This document shows, in pieces, positions 4,937 to 20,949 of a stretch of 64,000 nt of DNA; position 1 is the stretch's first letter; each line of letters opens with the position of its first letter. A program made the position numbers and the translations under genes. The notes under the pieces are model-generated. The model saw only the letters and a list, made by a program, of their open reading frames with translations, was not told where the DNA came from and searched no databases. This DNA is from Chloroflexota bacterium. Its GTDB lineage: Bacteria; Chloroflexota; UBA11872; VXOZ01. Location: the NCBI GenBank assembly GCA_028874195.1, contig JAPPLM010000042.1, positions 62,001-126,000 on the forward strand. Reading direction: 5' to 3'.

Positions 4937-5812
4937 CTAGACCGTCACGCTGCTGTACGCGAGCAGGATAGCGCCCAAGGCAATCACAACCGCGCCACCG
5001 ATGCGCGGCACCGGCGATGCCTCGCGCAGTACCACGATGCCCAGCACTGTGCCTATGACGACACCTACCTCCCGCAGCGGCGCCACCTGGCTCGCCTGCG
5101 CAATGGAAAGCGCAACTAGCGCAAGACTATACGCAAGCGGCGAGAGCACTGCGCCGGCGGCCATCGTAACCGGATGTGCGCGCCACACCGCGATCAACGT
5201 GCCTACCCGGCGGCGGAGCAGCCACGACATCGATATGGCCGGGCCGAGGAATGCGCCCGTCACGTAGAGCAGCGGCGGCACGTGCGAAACACCCACTTTG
5301 TCCCACAGCGTGTACGTGGCGATGGTCACGCCGGTGACGGCCGCGAACACGAGGCCGGCCGCCGGTCGAAAGTGCGCGGCTAGGGTCTGCCGCGAGAGGT
5401 TCGGGGGAATCTGGAGAATGAGCAGTCCCAAGACAATCCCAGCGATGCCGAGCCCCTGCGGCAGGTTGATGTGCTCGCCAAGGATGAGCACCGCGCCGAT
5501 GGGCGTGAGCGCCACGCCCATGCCCCGGGCCAGCGGATAGACGAGCGACATGTCGCCGTGTTCGTAAGCTTGCGCAAGCAGTATGAAATAGAACGCGTGG
5601 ATGATCGCCGTACCCAGGAAAAATCCCCAGCCAACAAGCGAAACCGATGCACCGGCAAGTACGTACAACGCAACCGGTAGCGTGGCAATGGTACCGGCCA
5701 CGCAGATGTTCCACGTGTAGATGAGGGGCCTGCCGCTACGCTTGAGGAGCAGGTTCCACGTGGCATGCGCCAAGGCCGCCGCCAGCACGAGCAACAACGC
5801 GAGCACGGTCAT
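4937..5812 (-). CDS. EamA/DMT-family transporter
   Basis: 291 residues, mostly hydrophobic, with about ten predicted membrane segments arranged as two EamA repeats: residues ~1-140 starting MTVLALLLVLAAALAHATWN, and ~150-291 ending VVIALGAILLAYS. The AHATWNLLLKR motif after the first helix is typical of the family. Inner-membrane exporter of metabolites or amino acids; substrate unknown. It is convergent with the isomerase gene and lies downstream of the CPBP protease gene on the same strand (77 bp gap). Confidence 0.88.
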   Translation of the reverse strand: MTVLALLLVLAAALAHATWNLLLKRSGRPLIYTWNICVAGTIATLPVALYVLAGASVSLVGWGFFLGTAIIHAFYFILLAQAYEHGDMSLVYPLARGMGVALTPIGAVLILGEHINLPQGLGIAGIVLGLLILQIPPNLSRQTLAAHFRPAAGLVFAAVTGVTIATYTLWDKVGVSHVPPLLYVTGAFLGPAISMSWLLRRRVGTLIAVWRAHPVTMAAGAVLSPLAYSLALVALSIAQASQVAPLREVGVVIGTVLGIVVLREASPVPRIGGAVVIALGAILLAYSSVTV

Positions 5813-5889
5813 AGTGGAACACCTCCAGGGCGCTCAGCGATACTGTTTACTGATTTGAGATTGCACTCGCCCGCTGGGGCTGTTGGAGG

Positions 5890-6861
5890 TCAAGATTTGT
5901 GCCCAGACTTGCTCCACGGGTACGCGAACCACTTATACCTCAGATTGAGAACGAGAAGCGCAAGTGCCAAACCAAAGATGTGCACGAAGTAGATAGTAAG
6001 CGCTGCCGCTTGGTCCGCATCGGCTACGAACAGAGAGGATGACGATGCTCTCCCGACCTCAAGGTTCAATACCAGCTTGTTGAAGATGTTTTGCATCGCG
6101 TGGTATCCCACCGCCAGTTCGATACCACCGTCGAGCAGCGTCATCACCGCAAGGAGTATGCCTGGGGGCATGAGCACGAGGGTAAGAATTACGACTTGAA
6201 TCGCCTCGAGGTCGGTGTTGGTAACAAAGTGTGGGACGGTGAAGAGAAACGCCGTGCCAAGGGCGAGAACCAGCCTGTTCCTGGTGAGCAGCGACAGACC
6301 TTGCAGTATGTAGCCACGGAAGAATACTTCTTCAGCGCCGGACTGAATCGAAACGAAGATAAGCACAGCTAGGACGAGGGGCAGATACTCCCGGAGGCTT
6401 TGCGCCTGGAAGGTTATCTCCACACCCGGCATGAGTCTGTACAGCAGTAGGACCACGCTGGCGACACACAGCAAGGCAAACGCGGCAAAGAGAACGCGGC
6501 TGTAGTCGAATGATGTCCTGCCGGTGGTTACCTGTGTCAAGGTCTTCTTCTGGAGAAGCATTGCGACGAGCCAAACGCCAATGAGGGCTCCCGCATGATG
6601 AAGGTAACGTAAGCCGAACTCAAGCAAGACAGAGACACCGTACACCTCGTTGTCACAGATGAACGCCAAGGCGCTGGATTTGCAGGCTTGGGAAACTACC
6701 AAAACGACGCCCAAGAATATGCCGATCACAGCGCTTGCGCCCAGAACCCACCGCCACCACTGGGTCAATCCGGTAGAGGCGGCAGCAAAGAACCGGTCAG
6801 TGGGTGTTTCGGGCCCATTGGGCGGTGATTGCGGGTCTTCGGGGGGTTGCTGAGGCTTCAT
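5890..6861 (-). CDS. CPBP-family intramembrane metalloprotease
   Basis: 323 residues with a Pro-rich cytoplasmic N-terminus (~1-30) and about eight membrane segments. It carries the ABI/CAAX motifs: GAEEVFFRGYILQGL (paired Glu and Arg), then FTVPHFVTN (His), then GYHAMQNIFN (His and Asn). The family comprises CAAX-processing-like proteases and, in bacteria, bacteriocin self-immunity or regulatory proteases. No bacteriocin genes are seen nearby, so the target is unknown. Confidence 0.87.
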   Translation of the reverse strand: MKPQQPPEDPQSPPNGPETPTDRFFAAASTGLTQWWRWVLGASAVIGIFLGVVLVVSQACKSSALAFICDNEVYGVSVLLEFGLRYLHHAGALIGVWLVAMLLQKKTLTQVTTGRTSFDYSRVLFAAFALLCVASVVLLLYRLMPGVEITFQAQSLREYLPLVLAVLIFVSIQSGAEEVFFRGYILQGLSLLTRNRLVLALGTAFLFTVPHFVTNTDLEAIQVVILTLVLMPPGILLAVMTLLDGGIELAVGYHAMQNIFNKLVLNLEVGRASSSSLFVADADQAAALTIYFVHIFGLALALLVLNLRYKWFAYPWSKSGHKS

Positions 6862-7206
6862 GTCTTGCTTGGTCTTATGTTAGGCATCTTGGGCAGTCGA
6901 TACCAATTTAGCTCTTGTGCACTTGAGTTACGTGGTTGGCAATTCTAAGAAGCAAGAGTCTTTGCTCAAAACTCCACTTCCGAAGCAGCGTTCCCGATTA
7001 TGCCACACAGATTATTGTCGCTCCAGTACGCGGGTAAGAGTAGATTGGCCAAGACGCCTTTCTTGTCAGGGCTTGCAGTACCGTAGGAATCTGCGAGATT
7101 TGGCGCTCCGCGCACAGCAACTGCGTATGTGACTGGACTGCCTCAAGAGTGTGTAGTATGGTAGCTTTAGTTTGAGCAATTTGGAGTTATTCAGGAGGAC
7201 ACGAGC
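6862..7206. other. Intergenic region upstream of the solute-binding protein gene
   Basis: 345 bp between divergent genes. I see no supported gene, repeat or clear hairpin. It must hold promoters for both neighbours; the ribosome-binding site AGGAGG at 7193-7198 before the ATG at 7207 is the only clear signal. Confidence 0.5.
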
Positions 7207-8592
7207 ATGAAGGCGGAGTTCACTAGTTTGAGCAGACGCCGGCTCTTGCAGGGCCTTGGTGCAACGCTAGGCGTGCTGGGTCTGGCAGCCTGCGGAACGG
7301 TGCAGACCGCCCCGGCCATGGAAGAGAAAGAGGCCGAGGCGCCAAAGGAAGAGAAGCCGGCAGAGGCGCCCAAACCGGCTGAGCCGACCGACGTAGACTT
7401 CCTGATCGGGCCGTTTGCCGGACGCAATGCCGACGCCATGGATACGTTGCTGGCGAACTTCCATGAAAAGACGCCGGAGATTCAGATCAAGTTGATCATT
7501 GCCGAGGCGGGCGTGAACTATCAGCAGCAAATTGCGACGTTTGTCGCCGCCGGCGCGAGTGCGGACGTGGTGCACATGTCCGGCGGGCACTTTACGTACG
7601 CCGCCGACGGTGTGGTGGTCAACTTGGATGACTTGATTAAGGCGGATGCCGACTTCGACATTAGCGCGTACTACCCGCGTGTCACCGAGTTTTATCGCGA
7701 GCCGGCAGGTGGGCTGTGGGCCTTGCCGTGGAATCATGCCACGGAAGGTGTGTATTACAACAAAACACTGCTCGCAGAGGCCGGCGTAGACGAACCGGAC
7801 GAGAACTGGGATTGGGACGATCTTCGTGACGCGGCCCGAATCCTGACCAAGGACGCCAACAATGACGGCGAACCGGAATCATGGGGCGTGGAGTTTCGCT
7901 TGGTGCGAATCGACCATGTGCTGCGGTCGTTTGGCGGTGGCTTTCTCGCCGATAACAATACGCGGTCGGTCATTACCGATCCCAAATCGATCACCGCGCT
8001 GCAGTACCTGGCCGACCTGATGCTGAAGGACCGCACCCACCCCTACCCGGCATTGGGTTGGCGGAATGGGTTTTCCGAAGGCAAGATAGCGATTTCTTTC
8101 CTGCCGGAGTGGGCGGCGGTTCGTCTCGCCGCGGTGGAAGGGCTTGACTTCGATGTCGGCGTCATGCCGCAGGGCCCGGAAGGCAGGTTTACGTTCCATG
8201 GCTCCGGTGGCGCTTCTATGTTTAGCACATCGGATTCCCAGGACGCAGCCTGGGAGGTGCTGAAGTGGTTCTGCAATTACGATGGCGGCGAGTGGGCGGT
8301 TGCTCGGGCGATTTCCTTCCCGGCCGGTTCTCCGACCGCTTTGATCGAGGCCAATGAGTACTTCTGGTCGGAGTACCTGACAACGCCGCCGAATAGGACT
8401 CGTTTCCTGCAGAATCCCGATTTCGCCGTGGTGCCCTTTGGCGGTAGTTGGGACGGCAGATTCTTCGACCAAAGCGCGCGCGCGGCGCTCCCGCAGATTT
8501 GGGAAGGCACGAAGTCGGTGGAAGAGGTAGCGCGGGAACTGGATGCCTTGTGGGTCGCACGGCTGGAGGAGACAGGCAGGCTCAAGAGTTAG
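7207..8592 (+). CDS. Extracellular solute-binding lipoprotein (family 1, sugar ABC type)
   Basis: 461 residues. The N-terminus combines a twin-arginine-like SRRRLLQG motif with a lipobox (LGLAAC), then an Ala/Glu/Pro/Lys-rich linker (residues ~40-60). The mature domain is a type-1 sugar-binding protein: LLANFHEKTPEIQIKL, then GGVYYNKTLLAEAG-like and SEGKIAISFLPEW segments. It would bind a carbohydrate at the membrane face for an ABC importer, but no permease or ATPase genes are adjacent, so it is an orphan here. The downstream Gfo/Idh and sulfatase genes suggest a carbohydrate catabolic locus. Confidence 0.88.
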   Translation: MKAEFTSLSRRRLLQGLGATLGVLGLAACGTVQTAPAMEEKEAEAPKEEKPAEAPKPAEPTDVDFLIGPFAGRNADAMDTLLANFHEKTPEIQIKLIIAEAGVNYQQQIATFVAAGASADVVHMSGGHFTYAADGVVVNLDDLIKADADFDISAYYPRVTEFYREPAGGLWALPWNHATEGVYYNKTLLAEAGVDEPDENWDWDDLRDAARILTKDANNDGEPESWGVEFRLVRIDHVLRSFGGGFLADNNTRSVITDPKSITALQYLADLMLKDRTHPYPALGWRNGFSEGKIAISFLPEWAAVRLAAVEGLDFDVGVMPQGPEGRFTFHGSGGASMFSTSDSQDAAWEVLKWFCNYDGGEWAVARAISFPAGSPTALIEANEYFWSEYLTTPPNRTRFLQNPDFAVVPFGGSWDGRFFDQSARAALPQIWEGTKSVEEVARELDALWVARLEETGRLKS

Positions 8593-10559: not shown

Positions 10560-12020
10560 ATGTCAAAGCGCCCGAACATTGTCGTAATCATCACCGATCA
10601 GCAGCGCTCGGACTGCATTGGGTACGCGAACCCGGTCTTGGAAACGCCGTATCTCGACGAGCTCGCCGGGCGCGGCGTGAGGTTTACGCGGTGCTACACG
10701 AGTTCACCGTCCTGCCTGCCGTCGCGGGCCGCCATGATGACGGGCATGGACCAGTGGAATCACGGACGGCTTGGCAGTGGCGCAGGCCAAGACGCTTTGG
10801 ACTTCCCGGCGACGCTGGCGGGCGAGCTGATGAAGGCTGGCTACCACACTGCGAGCATAGGGAAGTCGGACCAGTTTCCCAGACGCGCGCTCTACGGGTT
10901 CTATGAAGCCGTGCAGGATAGCACGGGCCGTGGTCTCTGGACTGACTATATGGCTTGGCTGCGCGCGGAGACAGCCGGGAAAATCGGTGACCTCGACCAT
11001 GGTCTCGAGTGGAATAGCTTGATGGGCCGGCCAAGCCACTTGCCGGAACACCTGCACGCCACCCATTGGACCGTGAGCGAAGCGGTCAAGTTCATCGAGC
11101 GGCGCGATCCCACGTGTCCGTTCTTCCTGTGGCTGTCATTCACGCGTCCCCATGCGCCCTACGATCCCCCACCGGTCTATTTCGATATGTATAAGGACAA
11201 CCCTGATATTCCCATGCCGTCCATGGGCGACTGGGCCGCAGCATACGACGAGCCGATTGCCAGCACCACTGCTTGGCGCGGCCGGGCTCCTGACACACAG
11301 GTGCACCGCACACGAGCGGCTTACTACGGTAGCATCACCTTCATCGATCATCAGGTGGGCCGTTTCCTCTATGAGTGTAGCTGGCGCGATCGCGATGCCT
11401 TGCGCAACACACTCTTCATCTTCACCTCAGACCATGGCGACATGCTCGGGGACCACTGTCTGTGGCGCAAGGGTTACTCCAACGACGGTTCCTCGCGTAT
11501 CCCGTTCTTCATCAAGTATCCGGACACGTGGGATGAGGAGCGCGGTGGGTCTTGCGACGAGATAATCGAACTTCGCGATCTCATGCCGACCGTGCTTGAC
11601 GCCGCGCGGGTGGAGATCCCTGAATCCGTCGACGGTAAGAGCCTTCTTTCGCTCGCGCGCGGCGAAGAAACTGAATGGCGCGATTTCCTGCAAGGGGAAC
11701 AAACCAGAATCCATGGCTGGGACCAAGGCATGCAGTTCATCGCGACGAAGCGGGAGAAGTACACCTGGTTCCACCATACGGGAAAGGAGCGGTACTTCAA
11801 TCTGGTTGACGATCCGCAGGAATGTCGCGATCTCGCTGGGAACGCCGCGGCACAGGGCCGCATTGACGAATTGCGCGCATTGCTCGCCCGCGTGAACGAG
11901 GAACGGGGCGATCCGCGCGGACAGAACGGCCGGTTAGTTGTGCAGCCGAACGGCGCGCTCTTGCAATCCCCCAATTACGCCAAGTGGAAGGCCCGCGCGG
12001 ATGCTCGCATGAGCTTGTGA
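10560..12020 (+). CDS. Sulfatase (type I, formylglycine-dependent)
   Basis: 486 residues. The start follows an AGGAGGAAGAGG ribosome-binding site. N-terminal NIVVIITDQQRSD supplies the first metal-binding Asp; the activation motif SPSCLPSRAAMMTG places the Cys converted to formylglycine at residue 52; a later FTSDHGDMLGDH contributes more metal ligands. It hydrolyses sulfate esters, probably on carbohydrates. No export signal is evident, so it would act in the cytoplasm. No anaerobic sulfatase-maturating enzyme or FGE gene is adjacent. Confidence 0.92.
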   Translation: MSKRPNIVVIITDQQRSDCIGYANPVLETPYLDELAGRGVRFTRCYTSSPSCLPSRAAMMTGMDQWNHGRLGSGAGQDALDFPATLAGELMKAGYHTASIGKSDQFPRRALYGFYEAVQDSTGRGLWTDYMAWLRAETAGKIGDLDHGLEWNSLMGRPSHLPEHLHATHWTVSEAVKFIERRDPTCPFFLWLSFTRPHAPYDPPPVYFDMYKDNPDIPMPSMGDWAAAYDEPIASTTAWRGRAPDTQVHRTRAAYYGSITFIDHQVGRFLYECSWRDRDALRNTLFIFTSDHGDMLGDHCLWRKGYSNDGSSRIPFFIKYPDTWDEERGGSCDEIIELRDLMPTVLDAARVEIPESVDGKSLLSLARGEETEWRDFLQGEQTRIHGWDQGMQFIATKREKYTWFHHTGKERYFNLVDDPQECRDLAGNAAAQGRIDELRALLARVNEERGDPRGQNGRLVVQPNGALLQSPNYAKWKARADARMSL

Positions 12021-12303: not shown

Positions 12304-14781
12304 ATGGTAGAAATGCAATCCCTGAGTCGCACACTTGGTTGGTTTTCTGGGCTGGTAACGGCTCGTCCCTGGATGACGATCTTCGTCATCCTCAACATAA
12401 CCATATTCTTGACCGCCGGAGCGGTGCGTCGCGCGCCACCCCCCGGAGATGAGGCGATACTTCCTCCAGGGAGTACCGTTGCCGAAGCGATAAATGAGAT
12501 CGATCAGCTATTTGGCGACGCTGGCGAAGCTAATGTAGTCACGCTGCTCTTTCGCGGGAACGCTCTTACGCCCGGCGGTCTCGCGCAGATGGACGCTCTC
12601 ATCGATGAGATCGTCAGCGATCCGGAAGTGAGCGCGCTCTTGGCGCCGGTCGATCCCCTCATCGCGCCCGTGCTGCTGATCAAAGCCGTGCTTCAGGTGG
12701 ACAACGTGGCGTCCGTCACGCAAGCGCAAATCGACGCCGCCCGCGGCCCTCCGGAAATCCAGGCGGTGCTTAGCGCAATGACGGGCGCCGACGCGGACGG
12801 CACTTCAGTCGCGATTGCTATTATCCGTTTGCGCGACACGGGCGATGAGCGCATACAAGACGCCGAACGCAAGATCAGTGAGGCCGCGCTGGCGGCTGAA
12901 GGCCCGCTGCAAGTGAGCAGCATCTCGCCTGTGGTGATCGAGGACGAGTACAAGCGAGCGACGCAGGAGGGGATGGGACCGTTGGTGGGGCTGGCGCTCC
13001 TACTGATCGCGGGGTTGATCCTGCTCTTCTTGCGCACGCTTTCGGATTTGTTGCTCACGCTGGCCGGATTGCTCATTTCGCTGCTATGGATTATTGGGGT
13101 GGAGGGCTGGCTGGGACCCTACGCGCTGGGCATTACCGGCCCGCCCAACTCGCTGACGTCGATGGTGCCCATCATTGTGATCAGCCTTACGGTGGACTAC
13201 GCGATTCAGATCGTCTCGCACTACCGCGAGCAGCGTCACGAAGACTTGCCGGTGGCGGAGGCCGCTCGTGTGGGTCTGCGCAACGTCACCATCCCGCTGG
13301 TGCTGGCGGCCGTCACGACAATTGTGAGTCTGCTGGTAAGTCTGTTTTCTCCTATTGGAATCATCGGTGATTTCGGCGTGATCGCGGGACTGGGTGTGGG
13401 CATGACCCTCATCGTGATGCTCACGCTGCTCCCGGCCGGCCGGACGATCATCGACCGGCGGCGGGAAGCCCGGGGCAAGCTCAAGCAGCCCCGTCTGGTT
13501 GCGACTGCCTTGCCCGGTATCGAGGGATTGGCGACACTGCTGGGCAGGAGTGTCACACGCGCCCCGGCGCCCTACCTCGTCGTTGTGCTCTTGGTCACCA
13601 TCGGGCTGGGGTATGCGGCCACGGGGATCAAGTCGGAATTCAATATCCGCGACATCTTGCCGAGAGGTGGGAGCCTGCTCACGGATATGAACACCATCGA
13701 TGCGGCCTTTGGCGGCGCCACGGAGATAGTCAGCGTGCTCGTGAGGGCCGAGGCGACGGAGACCCGCACGCTGCTGAACCTGCGCGACCTCACGGCTGCC
13801 TTCGCAGATGAAGAACGCCGGCCGAGCGCCGCGGCGGGACCGATCCAGGCCTCGTATGAGTTGCTCGTACGCGACTGGATCACCGACAGCGGCGAGCCTA
13901 GCGACAAATATGACCCGGAACTCGCCGCACTCTTCCGGGAAGCCTCCGCCAGCGTACGGCTTGATACAGCACAGATGCAGGAATTGCTCGATAGACTCCA
14001 AGCCAAGGACCCAACCCTGGCGCATCTGCTGGTCAACGATCCGGCGGGCATTGACGCAATACTGCTTCAGTTCCCGGCCTACGCGGGTGACACCAATCAG
14101 GCGAAGCTCATCCAAGATTCCCTAGAGGACCTCTGGCTCGGTGATGACAACGCTATCGTAGCAACGTCCGAGGGTATCATTGGTATCACAATAACGGATG
14201 CCATTACAGAACGGCAGACGGAGGCGATTACTACGACTATCGCGGTGGCGCTCGGGGTCCTGGCGCTCTTCTTCTGGATCACGGTGCGCCAGCCGGCGCT
14301 GTCCATCATCGCGGTGGGCCCGATTGTGCTCGTGCTCATCTCGGTGCTGGGCACCATGGCGCTGCTGGGCATTCCGTATTCACTCGTCACGTCTATCATC
14401 ACGGCGCTCTCGGTAGGTATCGGCGTGGACTACACCATCCACGTGATCCATCGCTACCGCGAGGAATACGCCCGCGGGCGGGACCCGGAGCAAGCGGCCA
14501 TCCGGACGCTCGCGACCACCGGTTCGGCGCTGCTGGGTTCCGCGCTGACAACGGCGCTCGGGCTTGGAGCGCTCGTGGCTTCGCCGCTGCTTGCGTCCCA
14601 GCAGTTCGCCATCACGGCGTCGATAACGATCCTCTACTCGCTGATCGTGTCCATTCTGGTGGTTCCACCCGCGATGACGGTCTGGGGCGCATACCAGAAC
14701 GTGCGGCTGCGCTCCAAAGTGAAGCGCTGGGCGGACGAGCTCGACTTGGAGATCGAGGCCATAGATCAGCGGTACGTGTAG
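12304..14781 (+). CDS. RND/MMPL-family membrane transporter
   Basis: 825 residues with the two-repeat RND topology: a membrane helix at ~20-40, a large extracytoplasmic domain to ~215, five or six helices to ~390, a second helix near 425, a second soluble domain to ~640, then the last helical bundle. Both repeats keep the family motif: VISLTVDYAIQIVSHYREQ and VGIGVDYTIHVIHRYREEY, with the proton-relay Asp. Relatives include MmpL, HpnN and the sterol-sensing-domain proteins that move hydrophobic lipids. It ends 27 bp before the sterol methyltransferase gene on the same strand, so the two are probably co-transcribed. Confidence 0.9.
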   Translation: MVEMQSLSRTLGWFSGLVTARPWMTIFVILNITIFLTAGAVRRAPPPGDEAILPPGSTVAEAINEIDQLFGDAGEANVVTLLFRGNALTPGGLAQMDALIDEIVSDPEVSALLAPVDPLIAPVLLIKAVLQVDNVASVTQAQIDAARGPPEIQAVLSAMTGADADGTSVAIAIIRLRDTGDERIQDAERKISEAALAAEGPLQVSSISPVVIEDEYKRATQEGMGPLVGLALLLIAGLILLFLRTLSDLLLTLAGLLISLLWIIGVEGWLGPYALGITGPPNSLTSMVPIIVISLTVDYAIQIVSHYREQRHEDLPVAEAARVGLRNVTIPLVLAAVTTIVSLLVSLFSPIGIIGDFGVIAGLGVGMTLIVMLTLLPAGRTIIDRRREARGKLKQPRLVATALPGIEGLATLLGRSVTRAPAPYLVVVLLVTIGLGYAATGIKSEFNIRDILPRGGSLLTDMNTIDAAFGGATEIVSVLVRAEATETRTLLNLRDLTAAFADEERRPSAAAGPIQASYELLVRDWITDSGEPSDKYDPELAALFREASASVRLDTAQMQELLDRLQAKDPTLAHLLVNDPAGIDAILLQFPAYAGDTNQAKLIQDSLEDLWLGDDNAIVATSEGIIGITITDAITERQTEAITTTIAVALGVLALFFWITVRQPALSIIAVGPIVLVLISVLGTMALLGIPYSLVTSIITALSVGIGVDYTIHVIHRYREEYARGRDPEQAAIRTLATTGSALLGSALTTALGLGALVASPLLASQQFAITASITILYSLIVSILVVPPAMTVWGAYQNVRLRSKVKRWADELDLEIEAIDQRYV

Positions 14782-14808: not shown

Positions 14809-15846
14809 ATGCTACTCCGCAAACTATCCAGCGGGCTGAAGGCCCAATTTCAGGGGACGGACGTTCACAGTCGCGTGAATCGCTTCGATGAATGGATGGA
14901 CAGAGCGCGCGATGAGGACGCGGGCCCGACGGACTACGACCACACCGAAACCGTCAAGGAATACTACGACCTTTGCGGCGAGTTCATGGAGTTCGGTTGG
15001 GGTGAATCCCTCCACTTTGCGCCGCTGTCGCCCCAAGAGAGCCTGGAGGACTCCAAGACCCGTCACCAGCGGCTGATGATCGCCAAGTTGGAGTTGGGGG
15101 AGGGCATGACGGTGATCGATGTCGGTTGCGGTGTCGGCGGTCCGCTGCGCCGTGTCGTCCGGGAGGCCGGTGTCAGGGTAGTCGGGGTCAATAGTAATGA
15201 AATCCAGTTGGACAAGGCGAGATCGTTGGACGCCGAGGCGGGTCTCGACCATATGACCGACTACCTCGCATGCAGCTTCATGGACATGGATGCTATTGCG
15301 GACGACACATTCGACCGGGGATACGCGATTGAATCGACGTGCCATGCGCCGGACAAGGCAGGCGCGTTCGCCGAGATTTACCGCGTGCTGAAACCCGGGG
15401 CACTCTTCTGGGGCCAGGAAATGTGCATGACGGGCATGTTCGATCCCGGTGACGAGCGACATGAGGCCATCAAGAAAGAACTGATGCACGGCATCGCGCT
15501 CAAGGATATAAAGACGACGGACGAGGTGAACCGTGACCTCGAAACGGCGGGATTTCAAGTCATCGAGGGGATAGATCGGGCCGTTGGCGAAGACGATCCG
15601 ACCACGCCGTGGTATCGGCCCATGGAAGCCCGGCACGGCACGCTCGGCAACGCCCTTATCAGGATGCCGCTGGGCCGCAAGGCGATGTTCGGGGCATCCC
15701 GGCTGGCCGAGGTGCTGCGGGTGTTCCCGACGGGCTCCGCCCGTGTCATAAGGCTGCTGGATCGGACTGCCAACGCCTATGTCGCAGGCGGCAAGACCGG
15801 GATCTTCACGCCTCTGTACTGTTTCCTGGCCCGCAAACCGCTTTAG
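14809..15846 (+). CDS. Sterol 24-C-methyltransferase homologue (SMT/ERG6 family)
   Basis: 345 residues, matching eukaryotic ERG6 length. It keeps the SMT-specific regions: FMEFGWGESLHF (residues ~59-70; ERG6 has YEYGWGSSFHF), the SAM motif VIDVGCGVGGP (~102-112), YAIESTCHAP (~172-181) with the CHAP signature, and a C-terminal SMT domain ending YVAGGKTGIFTPLYCFLARKP-like. The reaction in the family is methyl transfer from SAM to a side-chain double bond of a sterol. A generic UbiE-type methyltransferase would lack the first region and the C-terminal domain. No squalene epoxidase or cyclase gene is in the window, so the sterol may be imported. Confidence 0.88.
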   Translation: MLLRKLSSGLKAQFQGTDVHSRVNRFDEWMDRARDEDAGPTDYDHTETVKEYYDLCGEFMEFGWGESLHFAPLSPQESLEDSKTRHQRLMIAKLELGEGMTVIDVGCGVGGPLRRVVREAGVRVVGVNSNEIQLDKARSLDAEAGLDHMTDYLACSFMDMDAIADDTFDRGYAIESTCHAPDKAGAFAEIYRVLKPGALFWGQEMCMTGMFDPGDERHEAIKKELMHGIALKDIKTTDEVNRDLETAGFQVIEGIDRAVGEDDPTTPWYRPMEARHGTLGNALIRMPLGRKAMFGASRLAEVLRVFPTGSARVIRLLDRTANAYVAGGKTGIFTPLYCFLARKPL

Positions 15847-15886: not shown

Positions 15887-17920
15887 TTAGACGTTTATCT
15901 CGCGCCTCTGCTCGGCAATGACGAACTTCAGCTTCTTGCTTGGTTTGTTGTTCGGCAGGGGGCTGAACGTGAGCTTGTGCCTGAACTTCTCGGGGGACAC
16001 CTCGAGCCTGAAGTAGTGCGCGATCATCAGCACGTTGATAGCCAGTTGCCGTTCCATCATCCGCGTGCCGAGACAGGTGTGCGTGCCCAGGCCGTACGGG
16101 GCGTACGCCCGGCTGCGATGCTCATAGCGCGGCGCCGCATAGCGGTCGATATCGAAGGTGAACGGTTCGGGGAAGGCGTCTTCCATGTAGTGCGAGGCGG
16201 TCGTGGCGATATGGATCCGCGCTCCCACCGGCAACTCGAAGCCCTCCACCACACAGGCGTTCATGACGTTGCGAATGGACATGGGCACAACCGGGTACAT
16301 GCGCATGACCTCCATGAGGAAGCGGTGCGTGACGTCCAATGCTTCCAGGGTGAAGTCCTCGCCCTCCGGATCGCCATTCTCAAATAAGGCGTCGGCTTCT
16401 TTCTGAATCCTTGCGTACATGTCGGGCTGCGCCGCCATGGCATAGACCGCGAAGCTTAGCGAATCGCCCAGGTACATGCTGGCAAGCAGCGGCGCCGAGA
16501 GCACAAACGCCAGATTAGATTCCGGCAGGAACTGCGGATCGCTGGCATGCAGGCTGAGCAGGTCATCCGCGAGATCCCGCGGACGACCCGCGCGATGGGC
16601 GGGGGTATGGACGCTTTGGACCCGGTTCACCACCTCTTCGACTCTTTTCGCCCGGCGTCTCATGCCGGGGGTATAGAGCATGAATTTGGGCAGGATCCGC
16701 GCGACGTGCGTGGACAGCCCTCGTTCTTTATATGCCATGAGGTCGTCGATGATATCTTGTGATTCTATGCTGATGAAGAACGGCGAAAGTTGCGCATTGA
16801 TCATCCGCCGGCTCAGCGACCGTGCAGGGTAGGATTCACCGACCTTCCAGTCCGCCATATAGGTCCGGACGCTACGATAGACCTCATCCAGTTGTGTCTC
16901 CAGCCGCTCGCGCGAATTTCCGGGAGACATGGCCTTGCGCAACCGGAAGTGGTCGGCGCCATCCACGGCAGGTATGAGCCCGGACGCGCCGTAGACCTTT
17001 TCGAAGTCGGTAAAGTAATCCCTCGCTCTCAGATAGTGGCGCCCGTTCTGTTGGACCCATTGATTGACGCGGGGCCCGGCCATGAAGATGAGGGGCTCGG
17101 AAAAGGGCGGGCGTAACTGAAACACCGGGCCGTACTCTTGCCGAAGCACCGCAAAGATCGCCGGAATGTTGCCGCTGCGGACATGCGGGTTGAGCAGCAC
17201 CTTGTGCAACGGGACAACCGGAATCTGTTTGGCAAGAGCGGACCGCTGGAGCAGCGGTCCCGCGAAACTGTTGGCAACCGCCTCGGCGACGGACCGGCCG
17301 ATCAAACTCATCCTGCAGATGAGTTTGATGCGTTCCTCTGACTCATCTTCAAGTTGGAAGATGAAGCGCAGGACGTCGCACGTATCGAGGAGGCAGATAA
17401 TGATGACATCTCTTAGGCTGGGAATCTCATTGTCGAAGATCGTCTTGTTCACGCGCGTCTTGACGAACTCAACCGCAGTGGTGCCGCGGGATCTAGCGTA
17501 AACTTCCGTTTGCCAGGAAGTGCGCGCCAGCGTCCAGAATTCGCCCTCGTGATAATCCAGGACATTTTGCTCGACCAAGCGCTCCAGAATCAGATCGATG
17601 ATTGCCGGAGCGCGAAAGACGAGCCGCTCGACCCAATACTGAACAGTTTGCTCTTCCGGTTCGTTTGCGATTCTCGCAAGAATGGGATCCAAGACGGGAT
17701 TGCCTGTCTCTGTCCGGTCCAGAACTTTAAGGGATTCCCCATCCGCGTCAATGCGGTATCTGATCAAGAGTTCCGCCAGTAGGGCGCCAATGATGGCGCA
17801 GTTCAAATTCCAGCCGGGCACTTGGTGGAAGTAGCCGGTCTCCTCGTTGAGGAACATCAGGACGAGTTCTTGCGGCAGCGTTAGCTCATGGGTGGCAACG
17901 CGGTCTGTTGTGACAGACAC
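15887..17920 (-). CDS. GPP34 (GOLPH3-like) domain fused to cytochrome P450
   Basis: 677 residues in one uninterrupted frame; P450s are normally 400-450. Residues ~12-225 match GPP34: LTLPQELVLMFL, GWNLN (Trp38), ALLAELLIRYRIDAD, TGNPVLDPILARI, TVQYWVERL and ILERLVEQNVL, each with a clear GOLPH3 counterpart. Residues ~235-670 form the P450: HFRLRKAM C-helix, I-helix LASMYLGDSLSF, ExxR as Glu537-Arg540, and heme loop YGLGTHTCLG with Cys616. A full AAGGAGGT site precedes the GTG start, and no internal start with a ribosome-binding site is evident at the domain junction. GPP34 binds PI4P in eukaryotes; here it may dock the P450 to a membrane. No redox partner is adjacent. It is convergent with the SMT gene. 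Confidence 0.9.
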   Translation of the reverse strand: MSVTTDRVATHELTLPQELVLMFLNEETGYFHQVPGWNLNCAIIGALLAELLIRYRIDADGESLKVLDRTETGNPVLDPILARIANEPEEQTVQYWVERLVFRAPAIIDLILERLVEQNVLDYHEGEFWTLARTSWQTEVYARSRGTTAVEFVKTRVNKTIFDNEIPSLRDVIIICLLDTCDVLRFIFQLEDESEERIKLICRMSLIGRSVAEAVANSFAGPLLQRSALAKQIPVVPLHKVLLNPHVRSGNIPAIFAVLRQEYGPVFQLRPPFSEPLIFMAGPRVNQWVQQNGRHYLRARDYFTDFEKVYGASGLIPAVDGADHFRLRKAMSPGNSRERLETQLDEVYRSVRTYMADWKVGESYPARSLSRRMINAQLSPFFISIESQDIIDDLMAYKERGLSTHVARILPKFMLYTPGMRRRAKRVEEVVNRVQSVHTPAHRAGRPRDLADDLLSLHASDPQFLPESNLAFVLSAPLLASMYLGDSLSFAVYAMAAQPDMYARIQKEADALFENGDPEGEDFTLEALDVTHRFLMEVMRMYPVVPMSIRNVMNACVVEGFELPVGARIHIATTASHYMEDAFPEPFTFDIDRYAAPRYEHRSRAYAPYGLGTHTCLGTRMMERQLAINVLMIAHYFRLEVSPEKFRHKLTFSPLPNNKPSKKLKFVIAEQRREINV

Positions 17921-18089
17921 AAGTCTTACCTCCTTGTACGACTTGAAGCCTGGGAGGCCATGTTAGCATGGTAAAGAGTTGGGAAGGCTGCCCTTAACGT
18001 GATCAAGAAAGGGAATGGACTCTACGCACTAATGAGGATGCGGCGCACATTGGGCGATAGCGCGCCGGCAGTGTGATACACAAATAGCT

Positions 18090-18154: not shown

Positions 18155-19216
18155 GTGTCAAAGATGATAACCCAACTCAAGCCGTCTGAGAACGGCACAC
18201 TGCCATCCCCCTTTCCGGAGGGCTGGTACTTCATCGCAAGCCGCAAAGAAATAGAGAAGGAAAAGCTCATCCAGAAGACATGGATGGGCGAGAACATCGT
18301 CGCCTTTTGCGATGAGAGCGGGCGCATCTGCGTCGCTGAGGCCTACTGCCCGCACTTGGGCTCCGATCTCAGTCCTACCGCCGGGGGACGCGTCCGCGAG
18401 GGTCGGCTGGTATGTCCCTTCCATGGCTATGCGTTCGACGCCACCGGCACGTGCGTGGCAACGCCGTACGCTCCGCCACCCAGATATACTGGGCTGCGCA
18501 CCTTCGAGACAGAGGAAATCGCAGGCATAATTTTTGCCTGGTGGGGCATTGAGGGACGAGAACCGCAGTGGCGGTTGCCTGCGAATTCAGTGGACGAAGA
18601 CGGCTGGTGCGACCTGGAAATCCGCACTGTCCGCTTTGCCGGCCATCCGCAGGAGACATCGGAAAACGCGGTTGACTTGGCCCATCTGCGCTACATCCAC
18701 GGCTTTGGCGCCGTGGAACGTGTGGAACCGGTATCGGTGGACGGCCCCTATCTGAGGAGCCGTTTCAACTTCAGGTCCACGCGGTCGATTGCGAAAATCG
18801 CAAAACTCACGTTTGATCTCTCTGCCGATACCCACGTCTATGGACTGGGGTACTCGTTCGTGGATATCCGCGAACACTCAATCGGCATGGACATGCGCCT
18901 GTGGGTACTGTCGACCCCTGTCGACGGCACGCTCATAGAGATGTCGCTGGTCTCGCAAGTGCGGGAGATACGCCAGCCGAAGCGTTGGCTTGCCGGCCTG
19001 GGGTTTCTCCCGGTGGGGCTGCGCGCGCCCGTCATGAACAGGTTCACCGCGTCTCAGCAAGAGCGGGAAGTGCTGCAGGATGAGATCATCTGGAGCCGCA
19101 AGCGGTACCAATCCCGCCCGCGCCTCTGCAAGTCCGACGGCGAGATCACCAGGTATCGGCGCTACTGTGCCCAGTTCTATCCCGACCTAAGCGAGAACGG
19201 CAGTTCTGCTGACTGA
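18155..19216 (+). CDS. Rieske non-heme iron oxygenase (KshA/DAF-36-like)
   Basis: 353 residues from GTG 18155 (ATG at 18164 is an alternative). The Rieske cluster ligands are Cys65-x-His67 (CPHLGSDL) and Cys87-x-x-His90 (CPFHGYAFD). The mononuclear iron site reads ENAVDLAHLRYIHG with Asp174, His177 and His182, and the distal acidic ligand probably lies in LQDEIIWSRKRY. The C-terminal IW-x(4)-Y...RRYCAQFYP pattern is that of 3-ketosteroid 9-alpha-hydroxylase, cholesterol 7-desaturase and related sterol oxygenases. This supports a steroid-like substrate, though the exact position attacked is unknown. No dedicated reductase gene is nearby. Confidence 0.85.
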   Translation: MSKMITQLKPSENGTLPSPFPEGWYFIASRKEIEKEKLIQKTWMGENIVAFCDESGRICVAEAYCPHLGSDLSPTAGGRVREGRLVCPFHGYAFDATGTCVATPYAPPPRYTGLRTFETEEIAGIIFAWWGIEGREPQWRLPANSVDEDGWCDLEIRTVRFAGHPQETSENAVDLAHLRYIHGFGAVERVEPVSVDGPYLRSRFNFRSTRSIAKIAKLTFDLSADTHVYGLGYSFVDIREHSIGMDMRLWVLSTPVDGTLIEMSLVSQVREIRQPKRWLAGLGFLPVGLRAPVMNRFTASQQEREVLQDEIIWSRKRYQSRPRLCKSDGEITRYRRYCAQFYPDLSENGSSAD

Positions 19217-19293: not shown

Positions 19294-20676
19294 CTACGCC
19301 TTTCGAAACCGCCAGCCGTACATGATCCTGCCGTAATAGTTGAACATCCGCTTGGCCGCGGGATCATTGAAAGGGTAGTCCGCGCCAAGCTGCCTGGCGG
19401 TGGCAAGTCCGGTGACGAGGCAGGTCTCCTGGCTGTTGATCAGCGTGTGCGCGCCGCAGTGCCACGTGCGCCGCTTGCCCTGAATGAAGCGGAACAGGTT
19501 GACGAGCCACGCTACGTGACGCACGTCATGGACGATGTGCTGAAACCACCACTTCTTAACGACCTTCTGTTCATCAATAGTACTGATGGGGTTGTAGGTC
19601 ACCAGGCACGGCTTGTCCGAGCGGTGAGCCCACGGTTGCTGGTTGTGCATGATGTACGTGATCTCATAATTGTCCGGTCGCGCGCCGTACTGCTCGATGT
19701 GGTTGCTCCGCGTGGTCAGCGGCTTCACTTCATTGTCCGGCAGGACTGAAGAGTCGGAATGAACGACGGTATGGTTGTGGAGTTCGCTCTCATAGCGTAT
19801 CGACGAGAGAATGTAGCGCTCCAGAAACGTGGGCTTGTCGAGCATCATCAGCGTCTGGTTGGCATTGCTCGCGAAGATCACCTCGTCAAAGGTCTCCCGT
19901 TCACCGTTTTCGTCCTCGACCACGACGCCGGTTGCCTGACGATATACCTTGCGGATCGGGCGGTTGAGATAGATCTTGTCTCGGAAACCGGCTGACAGAT
20001 TTTCGTAGATGCGGCGCGTGCCCCGGTCCCACGTCTGCATCGGCGTAGCGGACTCGATGTCGAAGAACTCGAGATATCTTGCGAAGAGCGCCGCGGGCAT
20101 ATCGAAGACGTTCGTCGCCATGAGGAAATTGACGAACATTGGCTTGAGTATCTTGTATCTAAAGTCCCCGGAGAAGCCGCCGAGGTTCAGCAATGCTCCC
20201 ATGCTCAGGTAGTTGAAGGGATTCAAAGCGTTCAGTAGCTTCGACTGGGAACGGGTCAGACCTCCAAACCAATGGAGACGCCGCAGGAGTCTTTGGAACT
20301 GCGCAATCTCAGATTGGAGTTGCCGCCTGATGTCGGAATCGAAGTCGTGGGCGTACACCTGGCCGCGGTACTTCACGCTGTAGCTGAATTTGGTATCGAT
20401 CAACTCGATGCCAAACTGCTCCATCAACAGCAGAACGTGGTGATAGACCGAGGGTATGCAGGCGGTGACGGAAATATCGAAGGGAATCGTGCTGCCGTCA
20501 GCCTGCGGCATGTCGGCGGTAATGGCATTGCCGCCGATCTGTTCATGAGCCTCGAACAGCCGAAAGTCAAACCGGTCCGAGCTATGGTGCAGCGCCCAGG
20601 CGGCGCCCAATCCTGAAATACCTCCACCCACAATGGCAATTCGCCGTCGCATTGTCTCAGCCGCATCAGTTGGCAT
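19294..20676 (-). CDS. FAD-dependent amine-oxidase-like oxidoreductase
   Basis: About 460 residues from the ATG at 20676; an upstream TTG (20721) would add 15 residues, and an ATG eight codons further in is also possible. A dinucleotide-binding motif RIAIVGGGISGLGAAWAL is followed by LFEAHEQIGGNA, typical of flavin amine oxidases, desaturases and protoporphyrinogen-oxidase-like proteins. The C-terminal WHCGAHT...GLATARQLGADYPF completes the FAD site. Such flavoproteins oxidise or desaturate lipids and carotenoids. It is convergent with the Rieske gene (77 bp between the stops) and is grouped with the sterol-type island by position only. Confidence 0.8.
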   Translation of the reverse strand: MPTDAAETMRRRIAIVGGGISGLGAAWALHHSSDRFDFRLFEAHEQIGGNAITADMPQADGSTIPFDISVTACIPSVYHHVLLLMEQFGIELIDTKFSYSVKYRGQVYAHDFDSDIRRQLQSEIAQFQRLLRRLHWFGGLTRSQSKLLNALNPFNYLSMGALLNLGGFSGDFRYKILKPMFVNFLMATNVFDMPAALFARYLEFFDIESATPMQTWDRGTRRIYENLSAGFRDKIYLNRPIRKVYRQATGVVVEDENGERETFDEVIFASNANQTLMMLDKPTFLERYILSSIRYESELHNHTVVHSDSSVLPDNEVKPLTTRSNHIEQYGARPDNYEITYIMHNQQPWAHRSDKPCLVTYNPISTIDEQKVVKKWWFQHIVHDVRHVAWLVNLFRFIQGKRRTWHCGAHTLINSQETCLVTGLATARQLGADYPFNDPAAKRMFNYYGRIMYGWRFRKA

Positions 20677-20949
20677 GGTTTTCAATCCGGTTTCCCCCGT
20701 CGGCTGCCGTCCGGTCGGCAACGAAAGTTCGGATCAGGGAATCGGGACGCCGCATGCGGTGCGCTCGGCGTTTTCGAGAAAACCATCGCGCCGGGCCGCT
20801 CTCGGTACAAAGACTAAAAATCTGGACTACGCTTAGCATAGCGGATGATGGTGGGAAGTGTGCGCTTGGCCAGGGCGCTGCTGTTTGGGCGAACAACCGA
20901 GTCCGGGGTCACGTAGTGAGTTGAGAGAATTGTTAGTTTCAGGCATGGA

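Follow-up and report, generated by a model that had tools for sequence, protein, structure and literature searches.

Organisation of the locus

The stretch of DNA analysed here (the window) comprises 64,000 nucleotides from a Chloroflexota bacterium. On its minus strand lies a gene (15887..17920) for a protein of 677 amino acids in which a GPP34 (GOLPH3-like) domain is joined to a cytochrome P450. The gene starts with GTG at 17920, stops at 15887 and has a directly readable ribosome-binding site, AAGGAGGT (17928..17935, minus strand), 7 nt ahead of the GTG. The Pfam scan of the protein gave these two domains and no others. GPP34 (PF05719) is recognised at residues 15-216 (17273..17878, minus strand) with 105.4 bits against a cut-off of 29.1 (E 5.4e-30), covering positions 1-199 of the 201 in the profile, and this domain also gives a profile match to GOLPH3 (3kn1). 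The P450 domain (PF00067) occupies residues 245-649 (15974..17188, minus strand) with 120.9 bits against a cut-off of 22.8 (E 8e-35), and its predicted fold matches P450 structures. Besides the profile match, the hallmarks of the P450 family are found in the ExxR motif EVMR at residues 537-540 (16301..16312, minus strand) and in the heme loop YGLGTHTCLG, whose heme ligand Cys616 (16073..16075, minus strand) is invariant in the alignment. In alignments, the I-helix segment A480-S-M-Y-L-G-D486 (16463..16483, minus strand) stands in place of AGxDT, the motif of oxygen activation. The AlphaFold model of the fusion is of moderate quality (pLDDT 81, pTM 0.70), with the B-C loop below 50.

A preliminary description of this DNA had read one unbroken frame of 677 residues without naming its strand, a perfect AAGGAGGT site, a full GPP34 domain at about residues 12-225, and a complete P450 with ExxR at 537-540 and heme Cys616; all of this is borne out on the minus strand. 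It also knew of no described GPP34-P450 fusion, which is consistent with searches of open-licence full text, in which no published example was found. In these searches, GPP34 combined with P450 or bacteria led mostly to the unrelated Bt toxin Gpp34 (Cry34), and GOLPH3 with bacterial homologs gave no matches in open-licence full text. Three features are additional to that description: a sterol context, a wide distribution and a changed I-helix.

The fusion lies in a cassette of sterol-related genes. An MMPL/RND lipid transporter, HpnN-like and with sterol-sensing/Patched homology, is encoded at 12304..14781 on the plus strand (Pfam MMPL 4e-48, Sterol-sensing 8e-15; NCBIfam HAE3 3e-59, HpnN 7e-31). 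It is followed on the plus strand by a homolog of sterol C24-methyltransferase (SMT; 14809..15846), which is convergent with the fusion and ends 40 bp from its stop. The SMT neighbour matches Sterol_MT_C (E 9e-15) and carries three SMT motifs, FMEFGWGESLHF, VIDVGCGVGGP and YAIESTCHAP, which were read by eye. Divergent from the fusion is a Rieske oxygenase of the KshA_C type (SdmA/KshA-like; 18155..19216, plus strand; KshA_C E 5e-25, Rieske 4e-17) whose best solved match is KshA (2zyl). The cassette is completed by an FAD protein of the amine-oxidase fold (19294..20721, minus strand; Amino_oxidase E 4e-15) with LkcE as its best solved match. This flavin oxidase is among the best conserved cassette genes and is 75-86% identical in other phyla. 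Upstream of the cassette, at 10560-12020 of the window, there is an arylsulfatase gene that has a 98% identical counterpart in one genome of the same genus and did not turn up in cassettes from other families; it may act on sulfated glycans or sterols of a host.

Distribution and spread of the fusion

The fusion is genuine and old, is subject to purifying selection and is common to bacteria of three phyla. A strong match was found in 25 of 41 genomes of the window's class, mostly as open frames of about 680-705 aa, and a second Chloroflexota family (f72) also has an intact fusion. Of 395 genomes sampled from the class to which an Acidimicrobiia MAG belongs, 26 carry it, as do 12 of 109 genomes of one gammaproteobacterial order (11 at E <1e-199). 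Pairwise dN/dS is 0.04-0.24 in the GPP34 and P450 domains alike. The preliminary description had named a frameshift or assembly join as what might undo it and had proposed searching genome collections for the same architecture. The source is indeed a draft genome of 81 contigs, but most same-class genomes and members of other phyla, dozens of independent genomes in total, have the same unbroken frame of about 680 aa, and it is under purifying selection; a join or chance is therefore excluded, and the probability of an artefact is negligible.

Some fusion copies are broken or fragmentary (G002, G016, G860, G845). In G002, which belongs to the same genus as the window, a stop codon in the GPP34 part splits the fusion (L132:8688-10792) and the surrounding cassette is intact. 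One Acidimicrobiaceae MAG holds two fusion copies (L006:1920-3944 and 5804-7852) with an unrelated AAA/DUF4143 gene between them. A second, divergent GPP34-P450 with 31-33% identity keeps AGxDT (L070:1272-3311, L074:8284-10287, L077:8002-10035); it is adjoined by an acyltransferase-3 gene, Pfam-checked in L070 and L077, and is interrupted by two TAG codons in G016.

The fusion tree mixes phyla, with seven Acidimicrobiia sequences nested among Chloroflexota, and AU tests mildly reject monophyly both for the Acidimicrobiia (p 0.024) and for the window's class (p 0.034). The mixed tree suggests transfer of the fusion between symbiont lineages, in a direction that it leaves without proof. Record titles and bin names (SB06xx, APA) point to sponge symbionts for part of the fusion-bearing genomes; we take these bin names to be sponge-derived, and the origin of the window's own genome is judged from that of its relatives. 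A study of sponge symbionts used 113 public MAGs of Ircinia ramosa (Kelly 2022).

The companion genes were counted on fusion loci with flanks. In Chloroflexota (19 loci) the MMPL transporter and the flavin oxidase are present in all 19, the Rieske gene in 18 and SMT in 14. The corresponding counts among 20 Acidimicrobiia loci are 12 for MMPL, 14 for the flavin oxidase, 15 for the Rieske gene and 1 for SMT, and among 10 gammaproteobacterial loci they are 0, 1, 1 and 4. Another MMPL protein, with 20-25% identity to that of the window, adjoins the fusion in most gammaproteobacterial loci. The cassette genes travel together, with order and strands shuffled among genomes.

The GPP34 domain and phosphoinositide binding

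A profile of the fusion GPP34 domain and its standalone relatives, compared with all PDB chains, matched only human GOLPH3 and yeast Vps74 (E 4.5e-15 to 6.5e-13 over the GOLPH3/Vps74 chains, with 4.5e-15 for GOLPH3 3kn1); one standalone row, L016, was left out of the alignment A3. In GOLPH3, PI4P is contacted by W81, R90, R171 and R174, the hairpin 190-201 is inserted, and in the human protein R90L alone abolishes most Golgi localisation (PMC13408441). In the profile alignment to GOLPH3, R90 corresponds to I44, R171 to P105 (E/D in relatives) and R174 to I108, and relatives have mostly I/V, E/D/P and I/V at these columns; the divergent fusions keep Arg at the R174 column. The preliminary description had stated that the Arg contacts are missing, correctly, and had offered Trp38 as the counterpart of the PI4P-contact Trp. 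The latter claim is not supported: the residue is Trp37, conserved throughout the cassette clade, and it lies eight residues before the conserved Gly45, whereas W81 lies ten before Gly91, so that it is about two residues out of register.

Because the three Arg contacts are absent and Trp37 is displaced from the W81 column, the alignment gives no support for PI4P binding, and the phosphoinositide effector was rejected as the leading idea. Binding of PI4P or another phosphoinositide as in eukaryotes is very improbable, even though the profile places the domain in the same fold family, a Trp is nearby, and the strongly conserved hydrophobic pair F128-W129 falls in the GOLPH3 hairpin segment. As judged from the alignments, the GPP34 fold has been kept and the phosphoinositide site has not, and the domain may make a hydrophobic contact with membrane or protein. 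The earlier suggestion that it may tether the P450 to a membrane lipid or deliver a hydrophobic substrate stands in part: the neighbourhood of sterol genes favours a hydrophobic, membrane-borne substrate, and the link to PI4P is not supported.

The window's genome also encodes a standalone GPP34 protein of 220 aa (L001, G000:C12:50617-51207) with 31% identity to the fusion domain, and standalone GPP34 occurs in nearly all same-class relatives carrying GPP34. This standalone protein has a Trp, and its residue at the R174 column of GOLPH3 is Arg.

The P450 domain and its I-helix

In a Foldseek comparison, the best matches of the AlphaFold model included CYP184A1, Methylococcus CYP51 and CYP46A1, with identities of about 17-20%, and the phmmer/Foldseek neighbours include CYP51 and the cholesterol 24-hydroxylase CYP46A1. 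Such model-based matches indicate a P450, not which reaction it catalyses. CYP51 identity, which the best PDB matches suggested, was rejected: the CYP51 B'-helix signature (as in VYQFTVPIFGRGVAYD, read by eye) and GQHTS are absent from the fusion and are found in separate P450s of sterol-making relatives.

The I-helix of the window's fusion reads ASMYLGD and departs from the canonical A/G-G-x-D/E-T. Throughout the fused sequences of the cassette clade, of which about 59 are distinct, ASxYxGD or a variant, one residue shorter, replaces AGxDT, and AGxDT is kept in the divergent fusions (L070, L074) and in unfused relatives (L078, L079, L133, L134). The tree puts the apparent loss of AGxDT after the fusion event, in a part of the tree with long branches.

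Link to sterol pathways

In some Gammaproteobacteria and Acidimicrobiia the fusion adjoins genes for oxidosqualene cyclase (OSC), CYP51 or ERG24. One acidimicrobial locus (L181, G401) has squalene epoxidase, OSC, the fusion and MMPL in a row, and one gammaproteobacterial locus (L208) combines a CYP51-like P450 with GQHTS, ERG24, Rieske, 3-beta-HSD, MMPL, the fusion and SMT. In G402 and f72 there is a separate locus with ERG24, a true CYP51 and OSC; the separate CYP51 of OSC-bearing genomes has VYQFTVPIFGRGVAYD and AGQHTS. The presence of a separate CYP51 in sterol-making relatives indicates that 14-demethylation is not the task of the fused P450, which is additional to it. At L183:5492-9004, squalene epoxidase (166-403) and oxidosqualene cyclase (495-1123) are encoded in one ORF, and the cyclase matches at L186:5167 onward (1263 aa) and L187:7246 onward (1141 aa) are probably the same type of fusion.

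The window's own genome, 98% complete, gave no matches to PF08491 and PF13243 (squalene epoxidase, oxidosqualene cyclase), and de novo sterol synthesis in it was rejected. A cyclase was found in none of the 6 genomes of the window's genus, and squalene epoxidase in none of the 41 class genomes. Those class cyclases whose sequences were read, from families f3 and f4, carry DxDDTA and are hopene cyclases, and the cyclase match at L088 carries neither motif. Since the window's genus is without squalene epoxidase and cyclase, the cassette would act on an imported sterol or an unforeseen lipid, and sterol from a host or the community is the probable substrate. Work by others showed methylation of sterols in vitro by bacterial SMTs from sponge symbionts, and also an active SMT in a chlamydial genome that has no sterol pathway (PMC10070321).

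Proposed function

The fusion and its sterol context are solid ground, and the fused protein is probably a sterol-modifying P450 equipped with a peripheral-membrane or docking module of its own. We infer both the docking role of GPP34 and the reaction. The P450, a relative of sterol and terpene P450s other than CYP51, would work on a membrane-borne sterol, and GPP34 would lay the soluble P450 on the cytoplasmic face of the membrane or onto the transporter, replacing the role of the transmembrane anchor in eukaryotic sterol P450s. In the window's genus, which is without squalene epoxidase and cyclase, the cassette would most probably remodel sterol from the host sponge or from sterol-making neighbours. 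The altered I-helix would imply either substrate-assisted oxygen activation or a reaction other than ordinary hydroxylation. Several points count against the sterol-modifying, membrane-docked reading: SMT is absent from several cassettes, the Rieske and flavin enzymes could have other steroids as substrates, the annotated cassette neighbours include no recognised redox partner, and the lipid-contact residues of GOLPH3 are absent from the GPP34 domain. Because the defining features of both were checked and not found, the protein is classed neither as a GOLPH3-type PI4P effector nor as a CYP51.

The altered I-helix also allows that the P450 is not a monooxygenase and instead takes a sterol that already carries oxygen (hydroperoxide, epoxide) and rearranges, dehydrates or cleaves it in a CYP74-type or peroxygenase-like manner. 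This is a considerable possibility, although it falls short of even probability. The replacement is shared by all the fused cassette-clade sequences and spares the divergent and unfused relatives, and a redox-partner gene was not found among the cassette genes. With the acid-alcohol pair lost, chemistry of the isomerase, lyase or peroxygenase kind deserves serious consideration. However, CYP107A1 acts as a monooxygenase without the threonine, through substrate-assisted proton delivery (PMC10741444), and by this analogy the lost pair alone would not exclude hydroxylation. The gap in the I-helix is of one residue, so that Tyr483 or Leu484 could occupy the place of the threonine, and redox partners may be encoded elsewhere in the genome.

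GPP34 itself could be a protein adaptor rather than a lipid binder, docking the P450 onto MMPL or another cassette enzyme and channelling sterol. The acidic groove of GOLPH3 binds the basic tails of client enzymes (PMC13408441), no other companion gene is as widespread over the three phyla as one for an MMPL protein, and the PI4P ligands have been lost while GPP34 stays under selection. The adaptor role is possible but somewhat doubtful, the gammaproteobacterial MMPL being so distant from that of the window. A catabolic role, in which the KshA-like Rieske oxygenase, the P450 and the flavin oxidase degrade host sterols for growth, is unlikely. It would agree with a Rieske protein nearest to KshA and with sponge metagenomes that are enriched in steroid degradation genes and hold sponge-only KshA clusters (PMC5790920), but SMT and the MMPL transporter fit sterol building or export, a steroid ring-cleavage gene was not recognised among the annotated neighbours, and the fusion lies within de novo sterol clusters in L181 and L208. 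Going further than the preferred reading of a sterol-modifying P450 with its own docking module, it may tentatively be suggested that sponge symbionts have a new class of P450, brought to the membrane by a GOLPH3-like domain and without the O2-activation motif, which rearranges sterols of the host or community or performs another non-standard step on them, and that unusual sponge sterols come in part from this cassette.

Comparison with known systems

The GPP34 domain resembles GOLPH3/Vps74 over nearly the full profile and in the hydrophobic residues at the hairpin position; unlike them, the fusion is bacterial, has none of the PI4P-contact arginines and is joined to an enzyme rather than recruiting one. 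Similarly, CYP51, CYP46A1 and CYP184A1 share the P450 fold and the sterol context and are the nearest solved structures by sequence and fold, whereas the fusion has about 20% identity to them, no CYP51 signature and a lost AGxDT. The Methylococcus CYP51-ferredoxin is likewise a bacterial P450 with an extra fused domain in a sterol setting, but its partner is a ferredoxin for electrons, in place of the N-terminal GPP34 seen here. The Rieske oxygenase and the RND lipid transporter are of the types known from SdmA/SdmB C-4 demethylation and BstA/HpnN transport, yet the window's proteins are far below the NCBIfam equivalog cut-offs. The available portions of the reports on sponge-symbiont clusters (ERG24-CYP51-LSS, Kelly 2022; SMT clusters, Brown 2023) share with the cassette SMT, homologs of Rieske demethylases and spread between phyla. 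Those portions do not describe a five-gene cassette with GPP34-P450, MMPL and flavin oxidase, which, in contrast to the clusters they report, occurs also in cyclase-less genomes.

Significance

To our knowledge, almost nothing is known of the function of bacterial GPP34 proteins. The genomic context ties one of them to sterol and membrane-lipid chemistry and may show the role of the fold outside the Golgi. The altered I-helix makes the chemistry of the fused P450 a testable question. The cassette is a concrete candidate gene set, apparently spread horizontally, for sterol remodelling by sponge symbionts, and is of relevance to the dispute over the makers of those unusual sterols that serve as the oldest biomarkers of animals.
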